From Nitrospiraceae bacterium (GTDB lineage: Bacteria; Nitrospirota; Nitrospiria; Nitrospirales; Nitrospiraceae): a stretch of 64,000 nt of DNA. The DNA is taken from NCBI GenBank assembly GCA_035623075.1, contig DASPUC010000003.1, forward strand, positions 1 to 64,000, in the 5' to 3' direction. Made by a program: the position numbers and the translations under genes. Positions 7,899-10,446 of this stretch are shown piece after piece (within the stretch, counting starts at the first letter, position 1; each line of letters starts with the position of its first letter). The notes beneath the pieces were generated by a model. The model was not told where the DNA came from. It did not search any database and was given only the letters and a program-made list of their open reading frames with translations.

Positions 7899-8192
7899 TG
7901 TCAAACGGACCCTCCTGGATGGTTTGCCAGTCTCCTCTGCATTCCTGCCTTGCGACTCTGAAAAGCCCATCAAGTTTGCTAGAGGGGAAAATCGATGATT
8001 GTATAGCTGACAAACCCAAATAGGAGGCGCCACTTTCACCCACCAAACCTATCTGTAAAAAAAACGCTCCAAAGCCCTGTTTTCGGTCTGTGGATAGGCG
8101 AGCCAGAATTCGTGGGAAATGGCGTCGTTTACAGGCTTAGAGTTATCCACAGCTTTTCCTCTCTTTCCACAGAGAACCCACAATATTTAGTG

Positions 8193-8221
8193 TTGACAAT
8201 TAATTTCAATAGCTATATGTA
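8193..8221 (+). promoter_or_regulatory. Candidate promoter for the small-gene patch
   Basis: A perfect TTGACA at 8193-8198 is followed by TATGTA at 8216-8221 (17-nt spacer) or TATATG at 8214-8219 (15-nt spacer). The -10 match is moderate. It reads toward the 55-aa ORF and the GIY-YIG-like gene, but a hairpin at 8242-8278 lies between. Confidence 0.35.
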
Positions 8222-8241
8222 GCTACTCGCTGGATTAAAAA

Positions 8242-8278
8242 AGAAAGCCGCCTGATCGTGTTGACCAGACGGCTTTCT
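8242..8278. terminator. Hairpin, terminator-like, upstream of the 55-aa ORF
   Basis: The left arm AGAAAGCCG-C-CTG (8242-8254) pairs with the right arm CAG-A-CGGCTTTCT (8266-8278), giving a 12-bp stem with one mismatch and a short loop. A run of A's precedes the stem (minus-strand T tract), so it could terminate leftward transcription or act as attenuator for rightward transcription. Confidence 0.5.
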
Positions 8279-8315
8279 CAAAATCCACGCCCCGCGCCAA
8301 CGGGGTTTATTGCAG

Positions 8316-8483
8316 ATGGATCCCACCACTATTCGTGGCGGCGACGTGCTGTTTATAGAGAATGTGGAAAATTATGTCAAGGGGAAAATACAGAACAACG
8401 GCAGCGCCGGATTCGTCCTTGCCCGGAAGACCAGCGCCGCCATTACCGAGGAGGTGGCACAAATGTCAGTCCACCGCCCCTAA
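8316..8483 (+). CDS. Possible 55-aa protein
   Basis: A short ORF from ATG 8316 encodes MDPTTIRGGDVLFIENVENY and continues to a TAA at 8481-8483. It has a balanced amino-acid composition (V-K-G-K-I-Q-N-N-G-S-A-G-F-V-L-A-R-K) rather than the Arg/Pro-rich look of spurious frames. There is no strong Shine-Dalgarno sequence. It lies between two hairpins (8242-8278 and 8495-8514). No family is recognised and its coding status is unproven. Confidence 0.35.
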   Translation: MDPTTIRGGDVLFIENVENYVKGKIQNNGSAGFVLARKTSAAITEEVAQMSVHRP

Positions 8484-8494
8484 GAAGGGCCATG

Positions 8495-8514
8495 GGGGCG
8501 GGGAAACCCGCCCC
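8495..8514 (+). terminator. Perfect GC hairpin with GAAA tetraloop
   Basis: GGGGCGGG (8495-8502), loop GAAA, then CCCGCCCC (8507-8514). The 8-bp perfect stem with a stable tetraloop directly follows the 55-aa ORF. No long U tract follows, so it could be an RNA-stabilising hairpin rather than a classical terminator. Confidence 0.5.
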
Positions 8515-8595
8515 TTACGCTTTGCAGCCTAGCATGCATATCGCCGTATCAGCAACAGACGGCAAACAATCAAGCCATGAACAAAGGAGTACCTT

Positions 8596-8910
8596 ATGGC
8601 AGATACAATCAACTGGCAAGGCGCATCGGGTAAGACCTATACATATTGGATCTACCCGATTAGCGTTTCCTTCAATGCGACACCTGGAAGCTATTGCGTT
8701 GCTAAAGAAGTAGAGCCTGGCCGTTTTCGCCCTCTCTACTTCGGTGAAACCGCCGATCTGAGTGAGCGGTTCGATAATCATCATAAGTGGAGCTGTTTCA
8801 CTCGGAACGGTGCAACGCACATTCATGCCCATACAAATTCAGATCAGAAAGTGCGCCTCGAAGAGGAATCTGATCTGATCAAGAAGTGGAATCCCACCTG
8901 TAATGGCTAA
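8596..8910 (+). CDS. GIY-YIG-like small protein
   Basis: This 104-residue protein has a strong ribosome binding site (AAAGGAGT, 6 nt before ATG 8596). The core reads Y-F-G-E-T-A-D-L-S-E-R-F-D-N-H-H-K, then R-N-G-A-T-H-I-H-A-H and E-E-E-S-D-L-I-K-K-W-N-P. This resembles the Y-I-G strand, the arginine-bearing helix and the glutamate helix of GIY-YIG nucleases. The first G-I-Y element is degenerate (S-Y-C-V-A-K), so nuclease activity is uncertain. Family assignment is from memory. Its stop overlaps the stop of the convergent gene. Confidence 0.65.
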   Translation: MADTINWQGASGKTYTYWIYPISVSFNATPGSYCVAKEVEPGRFRPLYFGETADLSERFDNHHKWSCFTRNGATHIHAHTNSDQKVRLEEESDLIKKWNPTCNG

Positions 8911-9140
8911 CAGCCTGCGAGGCGGCCAATCATTTTGGCCGCCTCAACAGGGATATGAGTTATGGGTCGCCAGTGTCCGATATGCGTTTGCGCTAGTACA
9001 ACATAGCATCCATCATCCATCACAATCCCTATCTGGACCTCATTCCCGTCATCGACTAGCCATTCAGGATGCCATAATTCAGACGTTGGCCTCTCGGCGT
9101 CGGCATAATTTTCAGTGAACCGATTTTGGGTGATTGCCAT
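8907..9140 (-). CDS. Hypothetical protein (77 aa)
   Basis: On the minus strand, ATG (complement of 9138-9140) is preceded by a good ribosome binding site, AGAAGGAGA. The product begins MAITQNRFTENYADAERPTS. It is a small soluble protein with an alternating pattern E-V-Q-I-G-I-V-M-D-D-G-C-Y-V-V-L suggestive of beta strands. No family is recognised. It converges on the GIY-YIG-like gene, and the two stop codons overlap (8907-8910). The last codons include the perfect inverted repeat at 8919-8945. Confidence 0.55.
   Translation of the reverse strand: MAITQNRFTENYADAERPTSELWHPEWLVDDGNEVQIGIVMDDGCYVVLAQTHIGHWRPITHIPVEAAKMIGRLAGC
8919..8945. terminator. Perfect 11-bp inverted repeat, bidirectional terminator-like
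   Basis: GAGGCGGCCAA (8919-8929), a 5-nt loop, then TTGGCCGCCTC (8935-8945). It sits at the junction of two convergent genes, inside the 3' end of the minus-strand one. Confidence 0.6.
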
Positions 9141-9238
9141 TACAGTCTCCTTCTGTTAGAGTGTGGGAGACTGTGGCCATCATTCTGATCAATGATAGCC
9201 CAGGGGAAAGTTTCTTCCAGATGTAGACAATGAACTAT

Positions 9239-9270
9239 GGCCCGGACTCTACGGCAATAGAGTCTGGGCC
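9239..9270. repeat. Inverted repeat upstream of the 44-aa gene
   Basis: GGCCC-G-GACTCTA pairs with TAGAGTC-T-GGGCC around a short loop, forming a 12-bp stem with one mismatch. It could be a terminator for leftward reads or part of the end of the neighbouring IS element. Confidence 0.5.
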
Positions 9271-9298
9271 TTAATGTCTGGAGAGTCTAACCAAATCT

Positions 9299-9433
9299 AT
9301 GGCGAAAAGCAAAAATCTCTCACTGCATCCCCTCTCACTTGAGCAAGCGCTCAAAGTTATGGTTTCCGTAAAATCGCCGAAACGATCCGCTTCCAAGAAG
9401 CCATCGAAGAAGTCTTCGCGCCGGCACGCCTAG
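9299..9433 (+). CDS. Small basic protein (44 aa) abutting the IS1595 transposase
   Basis: ATG 9299 opens MAKSKNLSLHPLSLEQALKV and continues with M-V-S-V-K-S-P, then a Lys/Ser/Arg-rich tail ending R-R-H-A. The H-P-L-S-L-E-Q-A-L-K-x-x-x-x-V-K core resembles short proteins I remember next to IS1595-type transposases in other genomes, so it may be a conserved passenger gene. Its TAG stop overlaps the transposase stop on the other strand (9430-9433). The function is unknown and the role is inferred only from position. Confidence 0.45.
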   Translation: MAKSKNLSLHPLSLEQALKVMVSVKSPKRSASKKPSKKSSRRHA

Positions 9434-10317
9434 CTAGCTGACCTATACTGTAACCGCTTCCCTTCAGTGGCTCTAAACGCAAGTAAGGTTCTTGTGGCAT
9501 CATCTTCTCTCCGAGCGTTATACCGAAAATCAAATTCGGCTAAGTACCGATGCAGATGATGCTTCGACACATGGTGATACGTTCCAGTCAGACCACGCTT
9601 GAGGAGGCTGAAATAACCTTCAATCGTGTTTGTTGTCACTTCTCCGCGCACATAATGACCGCGAGAATGGTTGATGGTGTCATGACTGATAAATTCTTTC
9701 TTGAGTCCGCGATAGCCTTTAAATTCATCCGTCATCATGCGTGTCTCAGGCGAAACGTTTTCACAGATGATTGCGCGAAGATTTTTACTTGTCACTGTTG
9801 GTAGGGCGAAGGATCGGACACGGCCTTGCCGCTCGACTAGCGCGAAGACGGCTTTCTTTTTCGATGGTCCTCTCCCGCGCTTCTCTTTCCCTCCAATGTA
9901 GGTTTCATCTGCTTCCACAATCCCACCAAGCTTGCCGCTGAATGGCGAATGGGCCATTGCATACCGAATACGATGCTCCATGAACCATGCACTCTTATAG
10001 GTGATTCCCAACATACGATGAAGCTGATGGGCACTGATTCCTTTCTTCGAGGAACAAACTAGCTGCATCGCTTGAATCCACTTAGTGAGCGGAATATGCG
10101 AGTCTTCAAAGATTGTTCCGACAGTCGCAGAGAATTGCTTACGACACTTTCCGCATTTCAAAACAACTCGTTTGGATGTTTTAACATTCAGTGTGTACAC
10201 TCTTTCGGATTTACAATGCACGCATTTCGGACCATGCGGCCAACGCAGCTTGGCCAGATATTCATAGGCCTTTTTTTCGTCCGTCAGATGGTCGCCAGCC
10301 AGTAGATTTTGACTCAT
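9430..10317 (-). CDS. IS1595-family (ISXO2-like) transposase
   Basis: This is a 295-residue DDE transposase, apparently intact. The N-terminal zinc-ribbon has C-V-H-C and C-G-K-C pairs (about residues 32-60). It is followed by a helix-turn-helix-like segment (G-I-S-A-H-Q-L-H-R-M-L-G-I-T-Y-K-S-A-W). The catalytic core shows E-A-D-E-T-Y-I-G-G, T-D-E-F-K-G-Y and N-T-I-E-G-Y-F-S, the motif set of the ISXO2/IS1595 group. The ATG lies at 10317. The sequence TTTGTCAAGTATATAATC at about 10368-10385 looks like the right terminal repeat, but no clear matching left repeat was found. Confidence 0.93.
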   Translation of the reverse strand: MSQNLLAGDHLTDEKKAYEYLAKLRWPHGPKCVHCKSERVYTLNVKTSKRVVLKCGKCRKQFSATVGTIFEDSHIPLTKWIQAMQLVCSSKKGISAHQLHRMLGITYKSAWFMEHRIRYAMAHSPFSGKLGGIVEADETYIGGKEKRGRGPSKKKAVFALVERQGRVRSFALPTVTSKNLRAIICENVSPETRMMTDEFKGYRGLKKEFISHDTINHSRGHYVRGEVTTNTIEGYFSLLKRGLTGTYHHVSKHHLHRYLAEFDFRYNARREDDATRTLLAFRATEGKRLQYRSAS

Positions 10318-10418
10318 GTTCCACCCCCTGTTGTATGCCTGAAAACAGAGTACAAAATCCTTCTGGGTTTGTCAAGTATATAATCATGGGAAAATCTCAT
10401 AAGCCCATGAATTTGCTA

Positions 10419-10446
10419 TTGACAAGTCTTAAAGTGAGTGTATACT
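10419..10446 (+). promoter_or_regulatory. Strong sigma70 promoter for the dcw cluster
   Basis: A perfect TTGACA (10419-10424) is followed, after a 16-nt spacer, by TATACT (10441-10446). Expected transcription start is about 10453, only ~15 nt before the likely GTG start of rsmH. The site lies just outside the right end of the IS1595 element. Confidence 0.7.

Follow-up and report, generated by a model that had tools for sequence, protein, structure and literature searches.

The window (the whole stretch of 64,000 nucleotides from a Nitrospiraceae bacterium that was analysed) contains a transposable element of 2,395 bp (7994-10388) that encloses a transposase gene of the IS1595 family, a gene for a basic protein of 44 amino acids and a GIY-YIG-like gene. 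We give about even credence to the proposal that a class of cargo-carrying IS1595 elements has the 44-amino-acid gene as its second constant component besides the transposase gene, and that its product would assist transposition as an accessory factor or regulate it. As judged by sequence comparison of related elements, the small gene sits within the element, is under selection at the protein level, and stays and co-diverges with the transposase while the cargo changes.

Boundaries and layout of the element

The predicted transposase (9430..10317, minus strand; 295 amino acids) matches the Pfam families PF12762 (1.2e-41) and PF12760 (7.2e-12) and the NCBIfam model NF033547 (2.3e-66), and by these profile matches it is an IS1595-family transposase. 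The usual picture of an IS1595 element is a single transposase flanked by two repeats, and the target duplication of the family is 8 bp. The window element combines an IS1595-type DDE transposase with terminal inverted repeats and an 8-bp duplication and, like a transporter IS (tIS), has between its terminal repeats a passenger, the 104-amino-acid GIY-YIG-like gene (8596..8910, plus strand), which is presumably unrelated to transposition. Comparison of both flanks identified a perfect target duplication, GGAAAATC, at 7986..7993 and again at 10389..10396. The terminal repeats are imperfect: inward from 7994 and from 10388 they agree at 19 of 22 bases; the left repeat (7994..8019, plus strand) is GATGATTGTATAGCTGACAAACCCAA and the right repeat (10363..10388, minus strand), read inward, is CATGATTATATACTTGACAAACCCAG. 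Between them lie, from left to right, the 104-amino-acid gene, a second possible cargo frame of 77 amino acids with a Shine-Dalgarno-like site (8907..9140, minus strand), the 44-amino-acid gene (9299..9433, plus strand) and the transposase gene. The small gene starts with ATG and ends with TAG at 9431-9433, and the stop codon of the transposase occupies 9430-9432 on the opposite strand, the two overlapping in the palindrome CTAG. The tail-to-tail arrangement with overlapping stops given in the preliminary description is therefore correct; that account described the gene pair and overlooked where the element ends, its cargo and the duplicated target site.

A hairpin with a perfect 13-bp stem (9239..9270, plus strand) closely precedes the small gene, and the region 9225-9310 folds at -30.3 kcal/mol (z -4.83). 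A conserved hairpin at this place was considered and rejected: the fold is strong in the window and in locus L094 (z -3.89) and not in L091, L098 or L121.

Boundaries of related elements were accepted if terminal repeats were alike at at least 14 of 20 positions and flanked by an 8/8 duplication, and the control constructs received their downstream flank from another locus. By this standard 40 of 68 transposase-bearing loci were bounded, versus 0 of 204 swapped-flank controls. In the related loci compared, one inverted repeat precedes the transposase match by at most about 110 bp and the other follows the end of the match at a distance of 850-1260 bp. At the DNA level the window's own genome holds one full copy of the element, and the second match there (187 bases, 66%) is to another element. 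Three such transposase loci are present in this genome, belonging to three clades and each with its own companion, and two of the three are bounded by duplications.

An inward-facing TTGACA occurs in 30 of 38 terminal-repeat arms (7994-8019 and 10363-10388 in the window, plus those of 18 related elements), and the terminal repeats may carry -35 boxes for the transposase and the cargo; a promoter consensus scan of the window listed none at the terminal repeats. The window element and an element of genome G032 share their position (window 10389-10446; L091 5094-5140), 17 nucleotides before a common CATGAA and upstream of a promoter-like rsmH site. A single ancestral insertion was considered for the two and rejected, because the duplications at the shared spot are perfect yet different (GGAAAATC and AAAATACG, respectively), which makes two independent insertions the likelier reading of these sequences.

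The small gene family

Relatives of the small gene were found in 4 of 61 genomes, including its own, by an initial search, and a profile detected the family in 28 of 395 phylum-sample genomes (E<=0.01) and in 27 of 175 family genomes (E<=0.001); two weak matches of the phylum-sample search (G023 and G263, E about 0.005) were left out of the fetched loci. Members are mostly 35-55 amino acids long and share the consensus MPKAKPVSLHPLSFEEAxxxLL, followed by a variable tail rich in lysine and arginine; the window protein has 44 residues and a net charge of +11. When 22 MPK-type sequences are compared over their first 24 codons, the differences amount to 0.235 at the first codon position, 0.149 at the second and 0.535 at the third. 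Among these 22 sequences pN was lower than pS in 229 of 231 pairs (mean pS 0.66, mean pN 0.20), values that are simple counts from related sequences whose synonymous sites are near saturation. On such comparisons the small ORF represents a genuine gene family that purifying selection maintains; the protein-like character noticed earlier is borne out by the profile relatives in the family genomes and by the codon-position bias.

A GGAGG-like site stands at normal distance before most small-gene starts of the G011-like group described below, and the Shine-Dalgarno-like site of the window gene is far from its start (both by eye). The AlphaFold2 model (26 rows) has a single helix at residues 14-23 and coil elsewhere, with mean pLDDT 72.9 and pTM 0.31. 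Searches of 24 members against Pfam, NCBIfam and PHROGs returned isolated single-member matches only (E 0.045-0.094), and the PDB returned no match to the small family; in none of these searches was there a sequence match to a described family of transposition accessory proteins. A tblastn search of phages and plasmids with one small protein as query found nothing at E<=1. Among viral contigs, two loci (L167, L168) have the small gene, with no transposase match and no repeat-plus-duplication within the fetched DNA.

Distribution among IS1595 transposases

Counts that start from the transposase are the only ones free of selection by the small gene, loci L090-L124 having been picked by the small gene. 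With the window transposase as query, the 175 family genomes yield 41 matching places at E<=1e-40, and 33 of the 41 have a companion. With clades cut at identity gaps chosen after viewing (between 68 and 53% for the window-like clade, between 69 and 54% for the G011-like one), the small gene is present beside 5 of 5 window-like transposases (68-100% identity) and beside all 18 G011-like transposases of this list; a direct search gives 19 of 19 for the latter, omitting a disrupted copy in G326 (62% on 204 residues), which is likewise accompanied by the small gene. In the clade whose terminal repeat is GGCATTAATATACTTGACTCATCA, 9 of 9 transposases have a small basic ORF of a different kind, a count that includes two loci (L159, L163) with the same cargo and small gene, and a third companion type is found at G345:C2 (1/1). 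No companion was found at G020, G320:C5, G152:C115, the fragment G019:C25 (checked with only one small-gene profile) or any of the four members of the clade that is sister to the G011-like transposases; among these four, L154 has its end some 870 bp beyond the transposase.

The small gene had been suggested to be a regular companion of such transposases. The counts support this for the two clades (24 of 24 transposases among the 175 family genomes) and for a single element in each of G072, G394 and G205; it does not extend to more distant IS1595 elements, which are without the window's small family, some having another small basic ORF and some none detectable. Absence or disruption of the small frame beside most homologous transposases, which was named at the outset as the observation that would count against the suggestion, is not what the two clades present, all 24 transposases being accompanied by the gene.

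The 40 bounded loci comprise 17 with the window small-gene family, eight with the second type, two with the third type, one (L037) with an unclear candidate and 12 in which all three types are missing; L139 and L143, which belong to these 12, hold just an unclassified small basic frame. No obvious companion was detected in the cargo-bearing loci L132, L134, L136, L142 and L164, and the simple insertion sequences L148, L149 and L165 (835, 906 and 1014 bp, with duplications) have neither cargo nor companion. Since the sister clade, several cargo-bearing elements and simple insertion sequences have no detected companion, IS1595 transposases can do without one, and the companion is not universal in the family.

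Seven of the 35 fetched small-gene regions are without a transposase, and no repeat-plus-duplication was found around any of the seven. Cargo-like neighbours are present in L092 and L104, which are near contig ends, and in L114 and L124; L122 and L094 are alike across the small gene, a short match to cargo is present in L100, and in L105 neither cargo-like neighbours nor such matches were found. We take most of these loci for remnants. In G030 and G320 the small gene is also upstream of rsmH, with no transposase in the fetched DNA.

Placement and co-divergence

The small gene is constant while its place differs. It is convergent with the transposase in window-like elements, with overlapping stops in the window and a 4-nucleotide gap in L091, L094 and L098. 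In G011-like elements it is co-directional and downstream; 16 of the 19 have it at most 90 bp from the transposase match, and in G439, G236 and G341 the distance is about 340-720 bp. In G072, G394 and G205 it is again co-directional but stands on the other side of the cargo, at the distal end. The same orientation throughout, which had been predicted for recurrent pairs, is thus not observed.

Distances between small proteins correlate with distances between transposases (Mantel r 0.72, n=27), also inside the G011-like clade alone (r 0.54, n=19), and in each case 0 of 5000 permutations gave a value as high. On a transposase tree of 60 rows, four companion labels require four changes (the minimum is three) versus 26.8 when shuffled, with 0 of 200 shuffles as low; near-copies alone can cluster labels in this test, and the label 'none' rests partly on loci without found ends; L135 has a 54-amino-acid basic frame. 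The window-type small gene is present in two separate transposase groups, which implies either that it was ancestral and then replaced or that it was passed between elements. Among the three types of small ORF, profile similarity is weak (probabilities of 48.6% and 16.3%), and common descent of the companion types therefore stays putative.

Cargo

The 104-amino-acid cargo protein weakly resembles a protein annotated as a member of the GIY-YIG nuclease family (27.8% identity over 86%, E 2e-6); it has no match in Pfam, NCBIfam, PADLOC or the PDB, and its fold model is poor (mean pLDDT 47.6). The 77-amino-acid frame has no match in Pfam or NCBIfam. An all-versus-all comparison of 53 cargo frames, which were chosen mechanically so that some are antisense and the window's frame is not the 104-amino-acid gene, gave 14 similar pairs, eight of them among five DUF3800-like frames; on this comparison, the cargo appears mostly unrelated between elements. 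Eight of ten cargo proteins have family matches (Clp protease, PIN and, outside the window's small-gene family, DUF3800, KilA-N, two DNA methylases and glycosyltransferase 25), and many cargo proteins belong to no family. PADLOC gave a strong match to only one of 18 cargo proteins, that of G011 (L090 4601-5560), which it calls PDC-S42, a candidate phage defence protein, whereas NCBIfam calls it a 'LAPAL motif-containing putative phage structural protein'.

A trio recurs in L111, L115, L125, L126, L156 and L160, consisting of a protein of about 250-290 amino acids, then a PIN protein, then a small gene; the PIN assignment is from Pfam for L111, from annotation for L125 and L126 and by eye for the rest, and the protein of about 250-290 amino acids in L111 has no Pfam match. 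Ten G011-like loci (L093, L095, L101, L107, L109, L110, L112, L113, L117, L120) have a different protein, which has a membrane-segment-like start (by eye) and is mostly convergent with the transposase.

Relatives outside the phylum

Transposase relatives are present in 471 plasmid records, all at less than 60% identity, and seven regions were examined. The elements of Methylobacterium pMOC1 and Roseomonas p1318-1 are bounded by 8/8 duplications and have the order transposase, 266-288-amino-acid protein, VapC/PIN protein, 61-62-amino-acid ORF. Pseudosulfitobacter (7/8 duplication) and Sulfitobacter (no duplication found) have similar ORFs of 46 and 48 amino acids beside different genes. The small-ORF candidates of Methylocystis and Mesorhizobium are weak (12.6 and 14.1 bits), and no companion was recognised in the Entomospira plasmid region. 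A scan of genome contigs with the transposase gave two loci: one in a Sphingomonas MAG (L037) that is bounded and has an unclear convergent frame of 48 amino acids, and one in Caldilineaceae (L038) in which neither element ends nor a match was found.

Proposed function and alternative explanations

Co-divergence and the exchange of cargo tie the small gene to the transposase, and for this reason an accessory or regulatory role is preferred: the companion probably acts in transposition or its control. The plan of the element would be terminal repeat, transposase, companion, exchangeable cargo and terminal repeat. The short conserved segment MPKxKPxSLHPLSFEEAxxxLL may dock on the transposase or on a host partner, and the basic tail may contact DNA or RNA; the outcome would be either that the companion helps to pair the ends of an element of 1.8-2.7 kb or that it damps transposase activity. 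A broader proposal, which we advance tentatively, is that cargo-carrying IS1595 elements are two-component systems in which a companion of 35-60 amino acids, of three sequence types according to clade, is needed for long elements (about 1.8-3 kb) and short ones use the transposase alone, the companions on plasmids of Alphaproteobacteria being functional counterparts; companion-free long elements would then need another solution.

In the main rival explanation, the small gene would be a passenger, selfish or directed at the host, that is retained as constant cargo for the benefit it gives the element in its host, for instance by binding a replication, transcription or nucleoid factor of the host, and it would have no direct role in transposition. 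Constant presence, selection and a tail resembling those that bind nucleic acids fit this explanation equally well, and companion-free IS1595 elements with intact duplications exist; however, the small gene co-diverges with the transposase even inside one clade, and adjoins it in window-like elements and in 16 of 19 G011-like elements. We hold a passenger of this kind to be possible and somewhat doubtful. Less likely than a host-directed passenger, and in our estimation improbable, is a partner of the adjoining cargo gene, such as an antitoxin, a chaperone or an expression regulator. Antitoxin partners are commonly small proteins, and the small gene directly follows a PIN gene in G072 (Pfam PIN), in Methylobacterium and Roseomonas (annotated VapC or PIN) and, by eye, in G394; one and the same small family nevertheless stands beside unrelated cargo, whether GIY-YIG-like, Clp-protease-like, PDC-S42/LAPAL-like or without a family.

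A host gene beside which an insertion sequence chanced to land, an idea that the synteny first seen (upstream of rsmH in G032 and G030) had raised and that the loci of G030 and G320 without a transposase would favour, is very unlikely and was discarded: the small gene lies between terminal repeats inside an 8/8 duplication in 17 elements, and the G030 and G320 loci are near contig ends with cargo-like neighbours. A chance open frame, for which the short length would speak, is contradicted by the codon-position pattern and by conservation over clades and has a negligible probability.

If the preferred role in transposition or its control is correct, IS1595 elements with a second gene that tracks the transposase and with exchangeable cargo (a candidate defence gene, PIN and Clp-protease-like genes and many unassigned ones) would be small modular transposons, and the companion system would allow a direct test, by genetics, of the way in which short DDE elements acquire passengers. 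A gene of fewer than 60 codons is easily missed by annotation.

Comparison with known systems

The IS1595 family was reportedly defined by Siguier et al. in 2009 (Res Microbiol 160:232), and among the titles and abstract openings listed none was found on a small companion of IS1595, an earlier mention in the founding paper being possible. The table of IS1595 elements in Ralstonia gives lengths of 700-1287 bp (PMC7371123). Passenger genes uninvolved in transposition define the tIS concept, of which ISNha5 is an IS1595 example (PMC3129680, PMC7986276, PMC11891212). The window element resembles such tIS in its IS1595 transposase, terminal repeats and passenger genes, but has a conserved small second gene that the passages on tIS in these three articles do not mention. 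The simple IS1595 insertion sequences found here (L148, L149, L165) have the transposase family, terminal repeats and 8-bp duplications in common with the window element, but are 835-1014 bp long and are without cargo or companion. Among multi-gene insertion sequences, IS66 (TnpA/TnpB/TnpC) and IS21 (IstA/IstB) combine a transposase with separate accessory proteins in one element. The small family differs from these in being mostly 35-55 amino acids long with no convincing Pfam or NCBIfam match, but would be like them, in its putative role, as an accessory protein encoded in the same element as the transposase.
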